From assembly GCF_015353075.1 (NCBI RefSeq), contig NZ_CP064188.1, forward strand, positions 1,860,001 through 1,924,000: a DNA stretch of 64,000 bases, read 5' to 3'. Of the stretch, positions 3,536 through 13,299 are shown in pieces (the stretch's first letter is position 1; each line of letters opens with the position of its first letter). The notes below the pieces were generated by a model. The model was not told the origin of the DNA and ran no database searches. It saw nothing but the letters and a program-made list of their open reading frames with translations. The DNA is from Rhizobium sp. 007 (GTDB taxonomy: Bacteria; Pseudomonadota; Alphaproteobacteria; Rhizobiales; Rhizobiaceae). The translations under genes and the position numbers were made by a program.

Positions 3536-4057
3536 ATTCTAGCTCTGATATCTTGAATTACACTGACGACCGAGCTCTGATTTTCGCCCATTCAATCGTC
3601 GTCGGGATGTCTCGGTTCCATCCTCCACTAAGCCCAGGACGTTACATTGCCCTAGAGTTCGCCCTTGTGTCTCGATGAAGGGGTAGAGGGTGCCGCGTTC
3701 GATGGCAAGTTCCTGCAAAGATCGGAAACGGGATATGTCGCGTTGTGACATGGCGGCCTGGACAAGTCGTCCCTGTGCTTTGGATACCTACGGGGGAAAG
3801 ATAAGTCACCTATATTTGCGTCCGACGTTGTAGGTTGTAGACCGACAATCGTAGGTTCTCCGATGACTACACCTCCGGTGCTGCCTACCAACTCATCTTC
3901 CGCAAGCCTTTTCGTCAGTTCTTGCGTGCAGGCAGAGATGTGCGATTAAAGCGCTTTCACTGAAGAGTGCGCTTTACGTGATCGCGCGGGGCTGTCTGCC
4001 CGAAATTCCCGGGAGTTGAAGCACCGTTTGGATAGAAGGAAGACGGTAGCAGACTTA
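3536..4057. other. Gene-poor stretch upstream of the lactate-type dehydrogenase
   Basis: Only short overlapping frames without recognisable domains occur here. The minus-strand frames at 3539-3751 and 3652-3891 interrupt each other and could be remnants of a decayed gene, but no family can be assigned. The promoter of the minus-strand gene to the left should lie within the first 200 bases. Confidence 0.4.
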
Positions 4058-4294
4058 TCAGTATCCGCAAATGTCCGCGCAAGCCGCGCTCCCGTAGTAG
4101 TCACGGTAATGCTCAGAGAACGTCGCCTCTGGTGGTGCCGGAGGATCACGGGGGGCGTCGGCAATTACTTGATCCAGCGACTGCACGACAAGGTAATGCA
4201 ACATATCGGGTTCTGGCTCACCCGCCAGCTTTGCAGCGATCTTGCCGGAAGAGAAAGGGCGCTCCACGACTTCATGTCGGAGCGCCCGTAGCAT
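4058..4294 (-). CDS. Small hypothetical protein
   Basis: A 78-residue frame with protein-like composition (LRALRHEVVERPFSSGKIAA, then PDMLHYLVVQSLDQVIADAP). It is acidic, with no signal peptide or membrane segment. The open frame extends upstream of the ATG with equally protein-like residues (NVVDR), so the true start may lie further up or the gene may be truncated. No ribosome-binding site precedes the ATG at 4294. The family is not recognised. Confidence 0.4.
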   Translation of the reverse strand: MLRALRHEVVERPFSSGKIAAKLAGEPEPDMLHYLVVQSLDQVIADAPRDPPAPPEATFSEHYRDYYGSAACADICGY

Positions 4295-4413
4295 GCGGTC
4301 GACGACGTTTGCGGCGGAGGTCGACAGCAGGCACCGACAGGATGAAGAGATTCGGAACGGATAGGCAACATGGGATCGGATCTGGGGACCATATCATGCG
4401 CTGACTGATTGCG

Positions 4414-4444
4414 TTATCCACCGATTATCCACAGCTTGTCCACA
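4414..4444 (+). promoter_or_regulatory. Three tandem DnaA-box-like motifs
   Basis: TTATCCACC (4414), TTATCCACA (4425) and TTGTCCACA (4436) start exactly 11 bases apart, one helical turn. The middle one equals the classical DnaA-box consensus; the others differ at one or two positions. No replication gene lies nearby, so an origin role is unproven. A DnaA titration or regulatory site is equally possible. Confidence 0.45.
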
Positions 4445-4519
4445 GCAATGGCGACGACGACCGCAGCAACTTCAATGACATTTGCGTGACGGTAATCACA
4501 ACACACAATTGCTATGTGA

Positions 4520-4669
4520 CTGTTGGATGACACTATGCATTTGTTTGTCGGCTTCGATACAAACCGAGGCCCCGCTGAGATAGACTCAGCCTCTCTCTTG
4601 AGCGCGTGGCGGCGAACGCTCGGAGGCGGAGGGCGGTGGGCAAACATGAGGGCCTACCGCCTTCTTTTT
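4520..4669 (+). ncRNA. Candidate small RNA ending in an intrinsic terminator
   Basis: GGCGGTGGGC (4632-4641) pairs with GCCTACCGCC (4652-4661), ten pairs with one G-U, and is followed by TTCTTTTT. That is a convincing plus-strand terminator. Upstream, CTGAG ATAGA CTCAG forms a second small hairpin. There is no plus-strand protein gene for the terminator to serve, so an intergenic sRNA is a reasonable reading. The 5' end given is a guess. Confidence 0.35.
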
Positions 4670-4700
4670 GACGACGGCCCCTCGCCTGGATCCGCCCAGC

Positions 4701-5561
4701 TCACAGGGCGAGCCTGACAATTCCATATGGATTGAACTTGAACTCGTCCACGTCGTAAGTTGAATCAAAGGAAAGGGTTGCATGGCGTATCTTAAGTGTC
4801 GGCTCGAGCCCCCGCTTCGCGATCTCGTCAGCGACCGCATCCATCGTGGCGACAGCCTGCCTTTCAGAGCCAACCGGTTCCGGCACATACACTTCCGGAA
4901 GCCCCACGAGATGAAAACCGACACTCTCAAAATATCCCCGAGCTGATAGCGGGCGTTTCGCAAAAGCCAGGCGTCCGACCCGCTGTTGAGCCAAAAGGTC
5001 GCCGGCCTTGAGCGCTTCGGCTCCTTGGCGTATCAGTTCTCTCCATCGATCAAGCCCATGGGCGACGCCAGCGCTTTCTCCCTTTACGGCAACCGCCCCC
5101 GCGTCGATCAACCGTCCGACAAGGCGCAGGGCTGCCATCGAAACCTTCACCGTCTCCACCTGGGTCATGCTCGGCCCAAGGACATAGAGCACGGATTGGT
5201 GATTGGCGACGCCTTCCTCGTCTGCCGCGTTCCACGCTCTAGGTTCGACCCGATCCCAGCACACGGCGAATGACTGCTCCATACGATCATCCGGCTCGGC
5301 CTGAGAATAGTCCTCGTCGACGCTGAACCCCGTGGCGAAGTCGCGGATGGCCTGCGATGCCGCACCGGACAAAGGCGTCAGGTCGCGCTCCTTGCCGAGA
5401 AAACAGAGAACATGCCGGGGCGTTACTGACGATCCTTTCGCCTCGGTTTGCGTCGTTGTTTCCCCGTCAGACGAATCTCGACCGAATTCCTGCGCCAACG
5501 AAGGTTTCCAGCCGATCATGGTCCACATCGATCCCAAAAGCACGCGACGCATAAGATTCAA
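4701..5561 (-). CDS. Secreted protein of unknown function
   Basis: A 286-residue protein with an N-terminal signal peptide ending near PSLAQE, then a soluble acidic domain without a recognised signature. A TTG start at 5561 is preferred because AGGAGG lies eight bases upstream; the ATG three codons later is too far from it. The mid-region (VETVKVSMAALRLVGRLIDA) and the end (DVDEFKFNPYGIVRL) look like folded protein, and codon use resembles the neighbours. It stands alone, with 94 bases separating it from the next gene. A weak resemblance to DUF4261-type proteins cannot be confirmed by eye. Confidence 0.65.
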   Translation of the reverse strand: MNLMRRVLLGSMWTMIGWKPSLAQEFGRDSSDGETTTQTEAKGSSVTPRHVLCFLGKERDLTPLSGAASQAIRDFATGFSVDEDYSQAEPDDRMEQSFAVCWDRVEPRAWNAADEEGVANHQSVLYVLGPSMTQVETVKVSMAALRLVGRLIDAGAVAVKGESAGVAHGLDRWRELIRQGAEALKAGDLLAQQRVGRLAFAKRPLSARGYFESVGFHLVGLPEVYVPEPVGSERQAVATMDAVADEIAKRGLEPTLKIRHATLSFDSTYDVDEFKFNPYGIVRLAL

Positions 5562-5655
5562 GGTATATGCCTCCTGATCGGTCGTACACTCATCACAGCC
5601 TCGGCTTTGTAAACTTAGGAAACCTGCGACACAAACGCGGCTTTACAGCATTCGC

Positions 5656-6924
5656 TCATACAGATTCACCCGCCAGGGTCTGCTTAAGGCGATGGATATG
5701 CCTGGCACCAATGCCGCAACAACCGCCGATTATTGTTGCACCGGCCTCCGCCCAAGAGCAGGCAAAGCGCGAATAGCCATCATCGTTCAGATCGTTGCGG
5801 GTAGTATGGAGGCCTTCATTCGCGCCGGAATCATTTTGCTCCCCTTCGAAGGCATTGGCATAGACACCGATCTCTACCGTGGAGCCCCGAGTCTTAAATG
5901 CACGGGATGCTGTTTCAACCGCCGCCCGCATGACTTCTGGCTTGCTGCAGTTGAACAAGAGCGCCTGCGCGCCAGACGAGGCTGCCCAATTCGCCGCATC
6001 GTCGACCCGCTCGCCGGAACGCAGCTTCGGTTCACCTCCTTTTACTTGTACCTCGTCATCGGCCAGCGTGAATGAGATCCAGAACGGCTTCCCGTTTGCG
6101 GCGACTGCAGTGCGCACAGCCTCGCCCTCGGCGATCAGGCTGAGGGTTTCCCCGAGCCACAGGTCCACAAAGGGGCTGAGCTGTTCAACTAGCACCTTGA
6201 GATAGTCCTGGACCCGCAAAGGATCAAAGTTCTGGGGTTCGTAGGACCCGAAGATATTGGAGACGAGCGTGAGAGCGAGATAGAGAAGCGCAGATGCGAG
6301 GAAGAAGATGAAATAATGCTTGGTGCTCGCGCCAGCCAGGCGAGTGGCGAGCGCCAGTTCCTGATAGCCGACGACGGCAACCAGCGCGCTGTCCTTGGTG
6401 ACCGACATCCACAGATTGGCAAGGCCCGGCAGGGCATTTGGCAATAATGCCGGCAGGATGACTCGGCGGAAACGCAGCATCGGCCCCATGCCGAAGGCTT
6501 TCGCCGCGTCGATCTGACCAACGGGGATGGCGAGGATCGCGCCGCGCAGCACTTCCGTCATATAGGCACCCTGCACGAAGCCGAGCACGGCGACGGCGAC
6601 GACGAAGCCGTTCACTTCGATCGCAGGCAGATTGAGCCCGGCCAAAAGCCGGTTGAGGCCGTCCATTCCCGCATAATAGAGCCCGACGATCAAAATCAGT
6701 TCCGGAATGGCGCGGATAGCTGTCGTATAGACATTGAGCAGCAAGCCGAGCGGCCTGTTGCCGGAAAGCTTGCCAAGCGCGCCTCCCGTCCCGAGCAGAA
6801 TGCCGATCAGGAAAGCGCCGGCGGAGATGGCAATCGTGGAGGCGGCACCGACAAGCAGGGTTCCACCCCATCCGGGCGGATAGGGGGAAAGCAGGTCTAA
6901 TATGCCTCGTGGTTCGGTTGCCAT
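5656..6924 (-). CDS. Fusion of ABC amino-acid permease with C-terminal homocysteine S-methyltransferase
   Basis: The 422-residue frame joins two unrelated proteins. Residues 1 to about 223 are a polar-amino-acid ABC permease (HisM/ArtQ type) with several membrane segments and an EAA-like loop (YMTEVLRGAILAIPVGQIDA). From about residue 224 (IFGSYEPQNFD) to the end it is the C-terminal part of a homocysteine S-methyltransferase, keeping the zinc cysteines in FNCS and GGCCG but lacking the N-terminal third or more of that barrel. The junction lies near 6255. The permease has lost only its last few residues. A deletion in an operon of transporter plus methyltransferase would explain this and the absence of the second permease usual in such systems. 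The start at 6924 follows the binding-protein stop; an earlier in-frame start would overlap it. Confidence 0.85.
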   Translation of the reverse strand: MATEPRGILDLLSPYPPGWGGTLLVGAASTIAISAGAFLIGILLGTGGALGKLSGNRPLGLLLNVYTTAIRAIPELILIVGLYYAGMDGLNRLLAGLNLPAIEVNGFVVAVAVLGFVQGAYMTEVLRGAILAIPVGQIDAAKAFGMGPMLRFRRVILPALLPNALPGLANLWMSVTKDSALVAVVGYQELALATRLAGASTKHYFIFFLASALLYLALTLVSNIFGSYEPQNFDPLRVQDYLKVLVEQLSPFVDLWLGETLSLIAEGEAVRTAVAANGKPFWISFTLADDEVQVKGGEPKLRSGERVDDAANWAASSGAQALLFNCSKPEVMRAAVETASRAFKTRGSTVEIGVYANAFEGEQNDSGANEGLHTTRNDLNDDGYSRFACSWAEAGATIIGGCCGIGARHIHRLKQTLAGESV

Positions 6925-6949
6925 CGTCCGGCCGGATCCGGGATCGAGG

Positions 6950-7723
6950 TCAGTTCGTACCGTAGATGTCGAAGGCGAAATATTTCTTGGTGATTTCACC
7001 GTACTTGCCGCTGGCGCGCACGGCGGCGATCGCAGTATTCAGCTTTGCCTTGAGCTCGGAATCTTCCTTTCGCAGGCCGCCGGAAACGCCGGCTCCGAGA
7101 ATCTCCTCGTCGTCGGCGACGTCACCCATCTTGACGCAGCAATCCTTGCCGGCGTCGCTTTTCAGGAATGCATCAAGGGCAAGGGAATCCCCGAACACAT
7201 AGTCGATGCGGCCGGCGGCAAGATCCTGGAATGCCTCATCCAGGGTCTGATAGGTCTTCTCGTCAGCGACATCAGCGAAATACTTCTTGTAGTATTCCGA
7301 TTGAATGGTTGAGACCTGAATGCCGAGAGTCTTGTCCTTCACGTCATCGGCCGTCGCGCCCGGCTTCTGGTCTTTTGGGCCGATCAAGGTGCTCGGCGTG
7401 TTGTAATACTTGTCGGTGAAGTCGATGACCTTCGAGCGCTCTGCAGTGTTTGACATCGACGACCAGATGACGTCGAACTTCTTGCTCTGCAGCGCCGGAA
7501 TGAGCCCATCCCAGGAGACCTCGACAACTGAGCATTTCTCCTTCATCTGCTCGCACACGGCGTTCATCAGGTCGATTTCCCAGCCCTGCCACTCACCGGA
7601 GGCATCCTTGGCGAAAAAGGGAGGATACGATTCGTTCATGACGCCAAAACGGACTTCAGCCTGAGCCGTGATGGCAGAAATGGCAAACGTGGCGCCGGCG
7701 AGCAGCAGGGGGAGCAGTTTCAT
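6950..7723 (-). CDS. ABC transporter periplasmic binding protein, polar amino acid family
   Basis: A 257-residue family-3 solute-binding protein. The signal peptide (MKLLPLLLAGATFAISAITA) is followed by EVRFGVMNESYPPFFAKD, the typical start of the amino-acid-binding fold, and by GWEIDLMNAVCEQM. AGGAG precedes the ATG. It sits between the ATPase and the permease fusion in one minus-strand operon. Because that permease carries methyltransferase remains, S-methylmethionine or methionine is a reasonable ligand guess; the sequence itself does not show it. Confidence 0.88.
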   Translation of the reverse strand: MKLLPLLLAGATFAISAITAQAEVRFGVMNESYPPFFAKDASGEWQGWEIDLMNAVCEQMKEKCSVVEVSWDGLIPALQSKKFDVIWSSMSNTAERSKVIDFTDKYYNTPSTLIGPKDQKPGATADDVKDKTLGIQVSTIQSEYYKKYFADVADEKTYQTLDEAFQDLAAGRIDYVFGDSLALDAFLKSDAGKDCCVKMGDVADDEEILGAGVSGGLRKEDSELKAKLNTAIAAVRASGKYGEITKKYFAFDIYGTN

Positions 7724-7768
7724 TCGTGGATTTCTCCTGTTTGGGGGTATCTGTGACCAAGCAGCGGA

Positions 7769-8551
7769 TCAATGATGGGCGAGCATGCCGGTAAATTCCC
7801 GGCAGCGGGCACTGAGTGGGGCGTCGAAGATCTGCCGAGGCGATCCCTCCTCCTCGATCAGGCCCTGATGCAGGAAGAGAACGTGGCTTGAGACGTCGCG
7901 GGCAAAGCGCATCTCATGGGTGACAATCAGCATTGTGCGGCCCTCCTCGGCGAGCTCGCGGATCACCTTGAGCACCTCTCCGACCAGCTCGGGATCGAGC
8001 GCCGAGGTCGGCTCGTCGAACAGCATGACGGCCGGATCGACACAAAGCGCCCGGGCAATGGCCGCCCGTTGCTGCTGGCCGCCGGAAAGAAAGGCGGGGT
8101 ACGCGTCGCGCTTGTCGTAGAGCCCAACCTTATTGAGGAGAGCGTCCGCCTTCTCGATGGCCTCGCGGCGAGCATATCCCATGACCTGGACCGGTGCTTC
8201 GATGACGTTCTCAAGAACCGTTCGATGTGCCCAGAGATTGAAGTTCTGGAAAACCATGCCGAGGCCGGTCCGCAGCCGCTCGATCTGCCGCCAGTTCACC
8301 GGCTGCATCTGCCCGCTGCGGCTGTGTTTCAAAGCGATTTCCTCGCCGTTCACGACAATGCGGCCCCGATCCGGTATCTCCAGCAAATTGATGCAGCGCA
8401 GGAATGTACTCTTCCCGGAGCCCGACGAACCGATGATCGAAATCACGTCGCCTTTACGGGCCGTTGTCGAAATGCCCTTGAGGACTTCATGTGGGCCATA
8501 GCTCTTGTGAAGATCATCCACACGAAGTGCCTGGATAGACGGTTTTGTCAT
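7769..8551 (-). CDS. ABC transporter ATP-binding protein, polar amino acid family
   Basis: A 260-residue GlnQ/HisP-type ATPase. Walker A is GSSGSGKST, the Q-loop is MVFQNFNLWAH, the signature is LSGGQQQRAAIARAL, and Walker B is VMLFDEPTSALD, with the switch histidine in VTHEM. The ATG at 8551 (MTKPSIQ) matches family starts; the open frame extends to 8632 without a need for it. It is the first gene of the operon with the binding protein (45 bases downstream) and the permease fusion. The divergent Lrp-type regulator starts 172 bases away and probably controls it. Confidence 0.9.
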   Translation of the reverse strand: MTKPSIQALRVDDLHKSYGPHEVLKGISTTARKGDVISIIGSSGSGKSTFLRCINLLEIPDRGRIVVNGEEIALKHSRSGQMQPVNWRQIERLRTGLGMVFQNFNLWAHRTVLENVIEAPVQVMGYARREAIEKADALLNKVGLYDKRDAYPAFLSGGQQQRAAIARALCVDPAVMLFDEPTSALDPELVGEVLKVIRELAEEGRTMLIVTHEMRFARDVSSHVLFLHQGLIEEEGSPRQIFDAPLSARCREFTGMLAHH

Positions 8552-8723
8552 GCGCGGTACCGGTTCAAATAATGTTTGGAGAATATCGCGGATAGCTGCG
8601 GTTTTTGCGCGCAAATTCTGATTGTTTTGCATTTATTATGCAGAAATCTGTTTCTAATGCGTTTAATATGACAGAACACCGGTGTCGCCGGGTAATTTCG
8701 CCGTCGGAAGCGGAGGGAGCAGC
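8552..8723. promoter_or_regulatory. Divergent promoter region between ABC operon and Lrp-type regulator
   Basis: This 172-base gap separates two divergent genes and is AT-rich in its middle (TTTATTATGCAG, TTTAATATGACAG). Lrp/AsnC proteins commonly bind such intergenic regions and regulate both sides. No single perfect operator palindrome was identified by eye. Confidence 0.5.
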
Positions 8724-9209
8724 ATGGAAAGATTGGATGGCTTTGATCGCGATATTCTCGACATCATTCAGCGCAATTGTCAGCTGACGGCGGAAACCAT
8801 CGCCGAAAATGTCGGGCTTTCGACCTCGGCGGTGCAGAGGCGGCTGAAACGCCTGCGCGAGGACGGCATCATCAAGGCAGAAGTAGCCGTCGTCGATCGC
8901 AAGGCGACGGGCACACCGATGGTGTTCATCGCCGGATTGGAGATCGAGCGTGACAACTACGATGCGCTAGCGAAGTTCCGCCTTTGGGCGGAAAAGCAGG
9001 ATCACATCCAGCAAGTTTACTACGTTACCGGAGCGGTGGACTTGATCACCATTATCACGGCCCGCGACGTCGAACATTATGACGACATCGCGGCGCTGAT
9101 CATGAAAGAAAACCCGCAGATCCGGCGCATGCACACGAATGTAGTGCTGAGGGACGTCAAGTTAGGCCTATTGGTTCCGCTGAGCGCTGGCGAGGATCCC
9201 AGCAGATGA
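8724..9209 (+). CDS. Lrp/AsnC family transcriptional regulator
   Basis: A 161-residue Lrp/AsnC regulator. The N-terminal winged helix-turn-helix reads LDGFDRDILDIIQRN then LSTSAVQRRLKRL. The C-terminal RAM ligand domain follows (VYYVTGAVDLITIITARD). GGAGGG six bases upstream supports the ATG at 8724 over the in-frame start at 8682. These regulators usually respond to an amino acid, consistent with its divergent position beside an amino-acid ABC operon. Confidence 0.9.
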   Translation: MERLDGFDRDILDIIQRNCQLTAETIAENVGLSTSAVQRRLKRLREDGIIKAEVAVVDRKATGTPMVFIAGLEIERDNYDALAKFRLWAEKQDHIQQVYYVTGAVDLITIITARDVEHYDDIAALIMKENPQIRRMHTNVVLRDVKLGLLVPLSAGEDPSR

Positions 9210-9211
9210 GT

Positions 9212-9235
9212 GCGGACAATACTCTTTTCGTCCGC
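9212..9235. terminator. Possible shared terminator between convergent genes
   Basis: GCGGAC (9212-9217) pairs with GTCCGC (9230-9235) around a T-rich loop, in the 46 bases between the convergent lrp-type and pheC-like genes. The stem is only six pairs with no clear T run after it, so this is a weak call. Confidence 0.3.
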
Positions 9236-9255
9236 TATTACGCAGCAGAGATTCC

Positions 9256-10032
9256 TTACTGCATTGCCGCGTCGAGTTTCTCTTTCCACCCACCGCTTTC
9301 CAGTTGCTTGCGCATGAAAGCGTCCACCGCCGCCTTTAAGGCGGGGTCTTCGCGCAGCAGATAGGCATTCTGGAAATGCGTGAACGGCTCTTTGACGGCG
9401 ACCGGGCACAAGACGCTGGCATGCAGCTTGGACTGCAGGTCCACCTCCACGCCGTCCGTGACCATCACATCGGCCCTGCCCGACGCAATCTGGTCAAAAA
9501 TTGTCTTGTTGTCGGGAAACACCTCGATCGACGCCTCGTCGAAATGCTCGTGGGCGAACTTGTCGTTGGTCCCGCCCGGATTGACGATCACCCGCACGGA
9601 GGGTCGGTCGATCGCATCAAGCGTGGTGTATTTTTCCTTGTCCTCGCAGCGGGCAATCGGTCGCTTTCCGTCGGTCACATTGGGCACCGAGAAGTCGCCC
9701 ACTTCGTCACGAGCGGCGTTTACGGTAATGCCGCCGAGTGCGATGTCGAACTTGCCGGCCTTGAAATCGTCCAACATTGTTTTCCAGGTCGTGGTAACGA
9801 AGTCCGCCTTGACCCCGAGATCGGCGGCAAGATCCTTGGCCATGGCGATGTCGGCACCCGTGAGGGTGCCATCAGCAGCTTTGTAGCTGAAGGGCTTGTA
9901 GTCGCCCGTCGTGCCGATCTTGATCACGCCAGCCTTCTTGATTTCCGATAGAGCGTCGTCCGCCGCGAAGGTCAGTGCCGATGTCAGGCTCCACGCCACC
10001 ACCAACGTGGCCGCAAAACAGGTTCGCTTCAT
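9256..10032 (-). CDS. PheC-like periplasmic cyclohexadienyl dehydratase or binding protein
   Basis: A 258-residue exported protein of the solute-binding fold, closest in pattern to cyclohexadienyl dehydratase (PheC): GTTGDYKPFSYKAADG, KFDIALGGITVN, IVNPGGTNDKFAHEHF and DNKTIFDQIASGRADVMVTD match known PheC sequence features. PheC converts prephenate or arogenate to phenylpyruvate or phenylalanine in the periplasm. The signal peptide is MKRTCFAATLVVAWSLTSAL and GAGAGG precedes the start. It stands alone and convergent with the Lrp gene, so a plain amino-acid binding role remains possible. Confidence 0.75.
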   Translation of the reverse strand: MKRTCFAATLVVAWSLTSALTFAADDALSEIKKAGVIKIGTTGDYKPFSYKAADGTLTGADIAMAKDLAADLGVKADFVTTTWKTMLDDFKAGKFDIALGGITVNAARDEVGDFSVPNVTDGKRPIARCEDKEKYTTLDAIDRPSVRVIVNPGGTNDKFAHEHFDEASIEVFPDNKTIFDQIASGRADVMVTDGVEVDLQSKLHASVLCPVAVKEPFTHFQNAYLLREDPALKAAVDAFMRKQLESGGWKEKLDAAMQ

Positions 10033-10480
10033 GGTTCCTCTCTATAAACGTTGTTCGGTTGTTGCAGCGGGATTGCCGGCTAGTCGCGCGAGATTACTGA
10101 CGCAGCCAGGGTTTGTCACTCCCTGCGTCCACGAGCTGGCGCGACCAACAGCTGCAGTTTCACTGAGATATTGCGGCGGAAAAGTCCGCTTTGCCACCAA
10201 CAACCAACAATTCTTCGCCTGGAAAGGAGAAGCGCGGTGCAGCGAGCATTTATAGGGCTACTGCCTTCCTGGTCACTGCTCCGATCGGTTGAGCGCATGC
10301 GAAGATGGCTTCCCGCAAATATCATACTGATTGTGATATTGTTATTCCTGCTTGTTACATTCCTCCTCCTATGCCATTCTGCCCTTTACAAATTGGGCGC
10401 GCGAACAGCCAGCGCGCCGGGGCTCTACTTTCGACAGGATGGCGGCGTTCCGTTCGACCATCGATATGGGGAAATCTTGA
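10033..10480. other. Intergenic region upstream of the aldolase
   Basis: 448 bases between the divergent pheC-like and aldolase genes. No supported gene. An AT-rich part around 10318-10375 (TACTGATTGTGATATTGTTA) is the likeliest promoter region for the aldolase. Confidence 0.5.
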
Positions 10481-11545
10481 ATGGCACGCATCACGCTGAG
10501 GCAGCTGCTCGATCACGCTGCGGAGGAAGGCTACGGCGTTCCCGCTTTCAACATCAACAACATGGAGCAGGCACTCGCCATCATGGAGGCCGCGGACGCG
10601 TCTCGTGCACCGGTTATCATGCAGGCGTCGCGCGGAGCGCGCGCCTACGCCAACGACATCATGCTGAAGCACATGATGGATGCCGTCGTCGAGATCTATC
10701 CACATATTCCGGTCTGCGTTCATCTCGACCACGGCAACGATCCGTCGAGCTGCATGACGGCGATCCAGGCAGGCTTCACCTCGGTGATGATGGACGGTTC
10801 GCTAAAGGCGGATGCCAAGACACCGGCTGACTGGGCCTACAATGTCGGCGTCACCAAGATGGTGACGGACATGGCGCATTTCGGCGGCATCTCAGTCGAG
10901 GGCGAACTCGGCGTTCTCGGCTCGCTGGAAACCGGCATGGGCGAGGCCGAGGACGGCCACGGCGCCGAAGGCAAGCTGTCGCATGACCAGCTGCTGACAA
11001 ACCCCGACGAGGCCGTAAAGTTCGTGCGCGAAACCAAGGTCGATGCGCTGGCGATCGCCATGGGCACGTCCCATGGTGCCTACAAATTCACCCGCCAGCC
11101 GGACGGATCCGTGCTGGCGATGAGCGTCATCGAAGAGATCCACCGCAAACTGCCGAATACGCACCTCGTCATGCACGGCTCGTCGTCAGTCCCGATCGAA
11201 CTGCAGGAGATCATCAACAAGTACGGCGGCCAGATGAAGCCGACATGGGGCGTGCCGGTCGAAGAAATCCAGCGCGGCATCAAGAACGGCGTGCGCAAAG
11301 TGAACATCGATACCGATGGCAGGATGGCGATGACCGGCCAGATCCGCCGAGTGCTGCAGGAAGATCCGAGCGAATTCGACCCGCGCAAATATCTTAAGCC
11401 GGCGATGGCTGCGCTCAGCAAGCTCTGCAAGGAGCGCTTCGAACAGTTCGGCACGGCCGGAATGGCAAGCCGGATTACGCCGCTTCCTGTGTCGGAAATG
11501 GCCAAGCGCTACAAATCCGGTTCGCTCGATCCGGTCTTCTCTTGA
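10481..11545 (+). CDS. Class II fructose-bisphosphate aldolase family protein
   Basis: A 354-residue zinc-dependent class II aldolase of the Fba/CbbA subgroup. Zinc and phosphate site motifs are visible: [34 protein letters not shown] and [11 protein letters not shown]. It would cleave a ketose bisphosphate or ketose phosphate to dihydroxyacetone phosphate and an aldehyde. It is convergent with the GlpD-like gene, 8 bases away, within the polyol region. Its product could be glycolytic, or it could cleave the keto-phosphate made by the neighbouring kinase and dehydrogenase; the sequence does not decide. The start is preceded by GGGGA. Confidence 0.88.
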
Positions 11546-11553
11546 GCTGCAGC

Positions 11554-13299
11554 CTATGCTGACGCGGGGTGCTGTGCCTGCTTAGGCCCGGCGGCAGGCA
11601 TGCTGCTTGCGAGCGTCTGGCCATGGAAATTTTCAAGCTGGTTGACGACGTCCTCGATCTCGCCTGCAATGCGTTCGGCGTTCCAGCCGAGCGCAGCCCC
11701 GGCGACACCGGCGATTTCCCGCAAGCCTTCGAGCTTCAAGCGGCCTTCGATAGCAAGCGTCGTGCGCCGAAGGACGATATCTGAGAGGTGTACGACGAGT
11801 TCGTTTCGAGCAATCCAGTCGACTTCCTTGAAACTGTAGTGCCCCGCGCCCGTCAGCCGCTGTTCATCGGAATATGCCGACGAGAAAGAGAGCACGGCCG
11901 CAGCCGTCGTTCCGTAGCGGCCAAGCAGTTCGTCCACGCGCTCGACCGGCGCGTCGGTCCGCGCCGCGATTTCCTTGATCCAGACGCTTCGTTGCTGCAC
12001 ATCCATTGGGAAGGCCTTTCCGCCACCGATCGGCAGGTAGCGGGTCGACTGCTTGCGAACATGCTGCAGGCGCGCGAGAACGGAATCGGCAACTTCCTCG
12101 GCAAAACCGCGAAAAGTAGTCCACTTTCCGCCGACCAGCGAGATGATCGGAAACGGCCTGCCTTCTTCCGGCTCCTTCACTGGTGCGGAATGATCGCGAC
12201 TGATCAGCCCCGGGGCGGTCGCGTCGGAGGCCGGCAGCGGACGGATGCCGCTATAACTGTAGACGATCTGATCACGATCGAAGCGAAGCGTCGGTAGCAG
12301 CGAGCGGACGCTATCGAGAAAATATTCGGTTTCCGGTTCCTCGCAGCGGACATTATCCGGGTCGTCGGCAGGGATATCAGTGGAACCGATGAGCGCCATC
12401 CCGAGATAGCTGTAGACAAGGCAGATGCGCCCATCATCGGCCTCGAAATAGACCATGTGGCCGTTCAGGCTGCGAACCAGCTCAGGATGATCCAGCAGAA
12501 TGTGGGAACCCTTGGTACCGCCGATCATCCGAGAGGGAGCGCCGAGCGCCCCATTGACATGATCGATCCAGGGACCGGCGGCGTTCACCACCAGTTTGGG
12601 AGACACAGCAAATTCGCCGCCGTCCGGTTGCCTGAATGTCAGCCGCCCGCCGGAGACTGCCGCAAGCGTCGCGAAATTGGCGGCAAGGCTCTTCGCATTT
12701 GCCTCGAGCCCGTCCATGACGAGTTCGTAGACGAGCCGCTCGGGCCTGCTGATCTTGGCGTCGTAATAAATTCCGCCGGCAACGATTGCCGGGGTGAGGT
12801 GCGGCATTTCCTTGCGCGCCTTCTTTTTCAGGATCAGCCGATGGCGCGGCATGACCTGGTCGCGTGATCCAAAGAAATCGTAGAGCCTAAGCCCGATCTT
12901 GATGAGAACGGCCCCCCGGCTGCGTGGCGCAGTCTTGGAGCCAAGCAGCGTGCGCAGCGCTGCCCAAATACCCCGTGTCCAGGAGAATACCGGTATGAAA
13001 GTAGGCAATGGCTCGACGCAATGCGGAGCGTTCTTCAGCAGCAAATTGCGCTCCAACGTCGACTGGGCGACCAAGCCGAACTCGCCCGTCTCGAGATATT
13101 TCAGGCCACCGTGAATAAGGCGCGATGGCGCAGCACTCGTCCCGGAGCCGAAATCGGCCTTGTCGACGATCACGCAATTGACGCCTTGCGCCGAAAGGTC
13201 GCGAAACAGTCCGGCACCATTGATGCCCGCTCCGATGATCAGGACGTCGATGTCGCCCTCTCCAAGGTTCGAGAAGCGTTGCTGCATGTCGGGAGTCAT
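11554..13299 (-). CDS. GlpD-like FAD-dependent polyol-phosphate dehydrogenase
   Basis: A 581-residue glycerol-3-phosphate dehydrogenase homologue. The FAD-binding motif IIGAGINGAGLFRDLSAQG lies near residues 20-40, then SRLIHGGLKYLE and the substrate-site KGSHILLDHPE, with a C-terminal DAO_C-like extension (YSDEQRLTGAG onwards). It is clearly a paralogue of the EryB protein at 22684-24195. Placed 28 bases after an FGGY kinase, it would oxidise that kinase's product at the membrane and pass electrons to quinone. Glycerol 3-phosphate is one candidate substrate; a C4 or C5 polyol phosphate is another. Confidence 0.85.
   Translation of the reverse strand: MTPDMQQRFSNLGEGDIDVLIIGAGINGAGLFRDLSAQGVNCVIVDKADFGSGTSAAPSRLIHGGLKYLETGEFGLVAQSTLERNLLLKNAPHCVEPLPTFIPVFSWTRGIWAALRTLLGSKTAPRSRGAVLIKIGLRLYDFFGSRDQVMPRHRLILKKKARKEMPHLTPAIVAGGIYYDAKISRPERLVYELVMDGLEANAKSLAANFATLAAVSGGRLTFRQPDGGEFAVSPKLVVNAAGPWIDHVNGALGAPSRMIGGTKGSHILLDHPELVRSLNGHMVYFEADDGRICLVYSYLGMALIGSTDIPADDPDNVRCEEPETEYFLDSVRSLLPTLRFDRDQIVYSYSGIRPLPASDATAPGLISRDHSAPVKEPEEGRPFPIISLVGGKWTTFRGFAEEVADSVLARLQHVRKQSTRYLPIGGGKAFPMDVQQRSVWIKEIAARTDAPVERVDELLGRYGTTAAAVLSFSSAYSDEQRLTGAGHYSFKEVDWIARNELVVHLSDIVLRRTTLAIEGRLKLEGLREIAGVAGAALGWNAERIAGEIEDVVNQLENFHGQTLASSMPAAGPKQAQHPASA

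Follow-up and report, generated by a model that had tools for sequence, protein, structure and literature searches.

Homocysteine S-methyltransferase (HMT) genes have been described beside transporter genes in gammaproteobacteria, where the MHT1/dppABCD and MHT2/arcD clusters each combine an HMT gene with a transporter, and the authors suggest that a transporter is paired with its cognate enzyme (PMC3228920). In E. coli BW2952 a recent deletion removed the HMT gene mmuM and fused a fragment of the S-methylmethionine permease gene (mmuP) to the C-terminus of mhpD (PMC3228920). S-methylmethionine is made by plants and used by MmuM (PMC3228920; PMC12366255).

The locus described here, which lies in a 64,000-nucleotide stretch of DNA from Rhizobium sp. 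007 (hereafter the window), can be compared with both. As in the gammaproteobacterial clusters, an HMT gene is paired with a transporter, which in one of those clusters is likewise an ABC importer; however, the transporters there are of the peptide-type ABC or APC family and the clusters are intact, whereas the rhizobial importer belongs to the PAAT type and has been hit by a deletion. The likeness to mmuP-mhpD is that a permease fragment has been joined to the C-terminus of another gene by an apparently recent deletion. The E. coli deletion is about 100 kb long and affects a permease resembling AroP and LysP, whereas here 1270 bp are missing and the permease is of the ABC type; and whereas mmuM was lost there, here the fusion partner is the HMT itself. 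The kind of event is ordinary, and mmuP-mhpD is a close published parallel and a direct precedent. A literature search by titles and abstract openings brought up no description of the rhizobial operon among the matches listed, and the part of PMC4239095 consulted does not mention it.

The fused open reading frame (window positions 5656..6924, minus strand) encodes 422 amino acids plus a stop and, as judged from the ORF call and Pfam, consists of a truncated PAAT ABC permease followed by a C-terminal HMT fragment. The permease part (6256..6924, minus strand) corresponds to residues 1-223 of a 241-aa HisQ-type permease on the basis of Pfam, NCBIfam and its relatives, and the HMT part (5659..6255, minus strand) to residues 107-305 of a 305-aa HMT on the basis of relatives, alignments and a structural model. 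The switch from permease to HMT falls at fused residue 223/224 (window 6255-6253). The original prediction had placed the end of the permease near residue 223, a boundary that can now be refined to codon 224 as the junction codon; residue 224 is Ile in both the fused frame and the intact permease, whose last 17 residues are gone. When the two halves were aligned separately with protein families, each recovered its own: BPD_transp_1 on fused residues 40-225 (61.1 bits, cut-off 26.4; profile positions 4-174 of 184, so that the last 10 are missing, whereas the intact permease P0001 reaches 184) and S-methyl_trans on fused residues 237-416 (106 bits, cut-off 22; profile positions 119-282 of 283). 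The nearest NCBIfam models are HisQ for the permease half, at 158.3 bits and under its cut-off of 319, and the MmuM-type homocysteine S-methyltransferase for the HMT half, at 54.2 bits and under its cut-off of 215.

The best single protein for the permease half is P0001 (241 aa; 99% identity over 53% of the query) and that for the HMT half is P0002 (305 aa; 100% identity over 47% of the query), both named from Rhizobium mongolense. As each half has a full-length counterpart of its own, at 99% and 100% identity respectively, we reject a chance match or a misread frame, and the in-frame permease-methyltransferase fusion that had been proposed for this interval is borne out by the ORF, by Pfam and by these separate homologues. 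The cysteines of the FNCS and GGCC motifs, HMT Cys209, Cys285 and Cys286, correspond to fused Cys326, Cys402 and Cys403; they are invariant in 14 aligned sequences (the window's among them) and coincide in alignment with the cysteines of the NC and GGCC motifs of E. coli MmuM (5dml). In this family such cysteines are zinc ligands, and the three had correctly been predicted to be still held by the fusion.

Upstream of the fused gene in the same operon lie two genes that are intact as judged by Pfam, NCBIfam and strain comparison: one for a periplasmic substrate-binding protein of the LAO/HisJ type (6950..7723, minus strand) and one for a HisP-like ATP-binding protein (7769..8632, minus strand). 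Beyond the ATP-binding protein gene lies a divergent gene for an Lrp/AsnC-family regulator (8682..9209, plus strand; Pfam); a regulator of this family also adjoins the operon on an annotated plasmid of R. leguminosarum.

To see what the locus may have looked like before the fusion, we turn to R. gallicum IE4872 (L117), relative to which 1270 bp are missing here between flanking blocks that are 99.2% and 99.1% identical. The deletion junction (6253..6255, minus strand), located by this alignment, is a 3-bp ATC common to both ancestral ends. When the 5.5-kb region was compared by blastn with ten loci (L009-L012, L088, L089 and L117-L120), two aligned blocks met at the junction with ~1.1-1.3 kb extra in the relative in all ten, the second block covering only part of the query in L011, L012, L088 and L089. 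As can be read from L117 and L119, the final codons of permease 1, all of the 229-aa permease 2, a spacer and codons 1-106 of the gene for the 305-aa HMT fall within the missing stretch. A single deletion running from the first permease through the second into the methyltransferase had been put forward in the original prediction, and the gene order of the relatives together with the 1270-bp gap agrees with it. We are highly confident that the fused gene is a recent deletion-fusion pseudogene produced by a single 1270-bp deletion, and that the operon is now a young pseudo-operon. In the history that we propose, one event in the lineage of this strain would have taken the end of permease 1, permease 2, the spacer and HMT codons 1-106 at once.

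For L117 and several further relatives, the two blastn blocks have 6 bases in common, but one of these is mismatched, and with L117 only 3 bases overlap exactly. Since at least 3 shared bases were obtained in 6.2% of 200,000 random breakpoint draws in the same two genes, the 3 bp are little evidence for any repair route, and a strong claim of microhomology is rejected. Involvement of an insertion sequence is likewise rejected, as the two matched halves abut at the junction without any intervening sequence. The deletion would best be described as illegitimate recombination involving little homology (3 bp) or none. Division of 1270 by 3 leaves a remainder of 1, and the permease 1 and HMT genes lie in frames differing by one, so the in-frame outcome needed only a one-in-three chance; it is presumably by this chance that the two remnants were left in one frame.

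The intact form of the operon is widespread in rhizobia, where it is paired with an HMT. We compared 79 related loci, taken as the best 80 of 198 stretches of genome contigs that encode a relative. Permease 2 directly adjoins permease 1 in 78 of the 79, the exception being L067, whose contig breaks off right behind permease 1; the operon thus indeed has one permease where two are usual, as had been supposed. A nearly full-length HMT, with a match that starts by residue 30 and lies no more than 1.5 kb after permease 1, is present in 67 of the 79 loci, and the remaining 12 are L067, L077 (no HMT in the stretch examined) and ten with an HMT ~2-4.7 kb away. The order ATPase-binding protein-permease-permease-HMT is annotated in R. 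leguminosarum 9B (pRL9b3), which matches 64% of the 5.5-kb query at 79.5% DNA identity; in R. etli 8C-3, 81% of the query is matched, in three pieces. The gene order and the Lrp/AsnC neighbour are common to the 9B operon and the one studied here, whereas the second permease and a full-length HMT are found only in the former. HMT rows in alignment A2 are 68-78% identical to P0002; two alignments of the fused protein (A1 and A3) were left unused, as permease and HMT rows looked misaligned against each other and the HMT rows of these loci had 28-31% identity to the fused protein in A3. In R. gallicum M101 (L118), the binding protein, the permease and a homologue of the dehydrogenase encoded at window 11554-13299 appear split or shortened, for which sequencing errors are a more likely explanation than decay.

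The fusion itself appears to be private to this strain, within the collections searched, some of which may leave out sister isolates. Its 32-base junction, with up to 3 mismatches allowed, occurs in one of 148 genomes of the genus, namely this one, and a 300-base query across the junction matches 172 plasmid records, none of which covers at least 80% of it in one place. Among the best 120 of 2807 protein matches (8000 scored candidates) there is no fused relative, and the window's own protein is also absent from these 120. Of 100 genomes sampled from the genus, this one included, 68 have a match at E <= 1e-60, and those in the other genomes are confined to either half, apart from short extensions across the junction; the longest extension, from residue 191, is in G045, a genome that has the permease separately. 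Relatives carrying the same fused gene, which would speak against a recent deletion, were thus looked for and not found in these collections, and we set aside an ancient or shared fusion, none having been found in the genus genomes, the plasmid records or the listed protein matches. As relatives keep intact, separate genes, the most likely course is a recent, ordinary loss of an operon and not the birth of a new kind of protein.

A junction confined to one assembly, together with the separate genes that relatives keep (10 of 10 aligned loci; second permease in 78 of 79), is also what one would expect if the genes were still separate in this strain and the assembler had skipped 1270 bp. We consider such an artefact improbable. 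The 3 identical bases at the join should be too short to collapse an assembly, the assembly consists of 5 contigs at 100% completeness, and the adjoining binding-protein and ATPase frames are gap-free against L117 and L119. Moreover, a 1266-base query of the deleted DNA found only six weak matches in the strain's own assembly, of which the best (76 bases, 76%) falls in the first permease itself and the longest covers 116 query bases at 71%; we discount all six as conserved parts of permease genes or brief chance similarities.

The preferred reading, a genuine deletion, also appears to be a recent one. Synonymous and non-synonymous codon differences number 1 and 2 in the permease part against both L117 and L119, 5 and 0 (L117) or 4 and 0 (L119) in the HMT part, 4 and 2 or 6 and 4 in the binding protein, and 1 and 3 or 4 and 2 in the ATPase; the counts are unpolarised, and the closest strains have diverged too little to allow a test of selection. 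None of the eight alignments contains a gap. That the binding protein and the ATPase are intact and that the HMT part has no amino acid difference from L117 or L119 suggests that the event is young, and at the level of sequence little decay looks to have built up; the binding protein and ATPase of the young pseudo-operon would simply not have decayed yet. Against more distant strains the HMT part has 14 synonymous and 5 non-synonymous differences (L120), 9 and 9 (L009) or 13 and 12 (L010), and its alignments with L120 and L009 each contain a gap of one base. These differences indicate that the HMT gene varies fairly freely in the group anyway. The translation of L118, which stands outside the codon counts, differs from the window in one HMT residue.

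Whether the fused product could work was considered with a model of the intact HMT (P0002; 14 sequences; mean pLDDT 82.9, pTM 0.86). Its modelled barrel strands comprise residues 5-7, 53-55, 99-104, 138-143, 164-170, 204-209, 234-239 and 281-284. As the fragment starts at residue 107, strands 1-3 of the predicted eight are gone and strands 4-8 are kept, and the fused frame does not encode a complete eight-stranded barrel with its N-terminal motif. The lost residues 1-106 include a DGGMSREL segment; Asp8 within it corresponds in the alignment to position 26 of BHMT (1lt7), presumably a homocysteine-binding residue. On the transport side, a permease domain, a binding protein and an ATPase of a PAAT importer are present and the second permease is absent. 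Both the transporter, having lost its partner permease, and the HMT, having lost three predicted strands and the N-terminal motif, would probably be non-functional, and a working tethered enzyme is very unlikely. The original prediction had left two outcomes standing, a dying operon and a methyltransferase tethered to the membrane; the former fits better because the fragment lacks the first three predicted barrel strands and the N-terminal motif. Two other PF02574 proteins are encoded in the genome, one in a 1299-aa frame (the size of a methionine synthase) and one of 317 aa, so methionine synthesis should not depend on the fused operon.

Neither remnant contains a stop and the fused frame is kept, as would also be the case for a selected fusion. 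One could imagine that the permease half serves as a membrane anchor, perhaps as a homodimer, where the HMT fragment works or regulates transport. The retained frame and cysteines and the lack of amino acid differences from L117 and L119 in the HMT part are compatible with this, as is the match of the permease half to the PAAT permease chain 4yms, which comes from an importer with a single, homodimeric permease. With an organisation of that kind, transport might survive the loss of the partner, although 78 of the 79 related loci keep two different permeases at this place. Nevertheless, with predicted strands 1-3 and the DGGMSREL segment gone, with an event too recent for conservation to mean selection, and with no relative in the searched collections sharing the fusion, we consider a new function very improbable. 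More improbable still is a specific form of it, in which the fusion is made and acts as a homodimer in the membrane with the operon's ATPase and binding protein, the cytoplasmic HMT remnant adding a new property such as altered gating or zinc/ligand sensing; were it true, a fusion would have been caught at birth. Taken as a recent deletion, the locus is a clean, young example of the death of an operon, in which half of the importer is lost and the enzyme that it would have fed is knocked out in one event, and the in-frame chimera left behind could pass for a fusion protein in annotation.

The intact operon is a sensible candidate for a sulfur-amino-acid uptake system. That an HMT gene stands next to an importer points to a methyl donor as the compound taken up, and, to go by gene content, uptake of a plant sulfur amino acid followed by methyl transfer to homocysteine is the probable function. 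S-methylmethionine is a plausible substrate and the natural guess, being made by plants and used by MmuM. Further hints come from the neighbours of permease 2. In 11 of the 79 loci (L039, L065, L070, L073, L077, L078, L079, L082, L083, L084 and L087), that is, the ten with a distant HMT and L077, it is followed by a PLP enzyme of Cys/Met metabolism, 410-426 aa long in the four copies measured; a twelfth match, in L024, is distant (35%) and lies elsewhere. For three copies the best NCBIfam models are methionine gamma-lyase and O-succinylhomoserine sulfhydrylase, all under their cut-offs. The HMT gene is preceded by an aspartate ammonia-lyase-like gene in L073 and by a homoserine-kinase-like gene in L079, and these neighbours, like the PLP enzyme, hint at the operon's substrate. 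A search for a riboswitch in window positions 4000-11000, around the operon, gave no Rfam family at or above its gathering score.

At its end, the gene for the Lrp/AsnC regulator aligns with gaps of one base (against L117 and L119) or two bases (against L009 and L010), and the C-terminal tail of the regulator seems to vary among close strains. Directly downstream of the fused gene lies a 286-aa ORF (4701-5561, minus strand) without a Pfam or NCBIfam match, which is present in L117-L119 and apparently broken up in L120. On the other side, beyond the regulator, a second family-3 solute-binding protein gene is found at 9256-10032 (minus strand).
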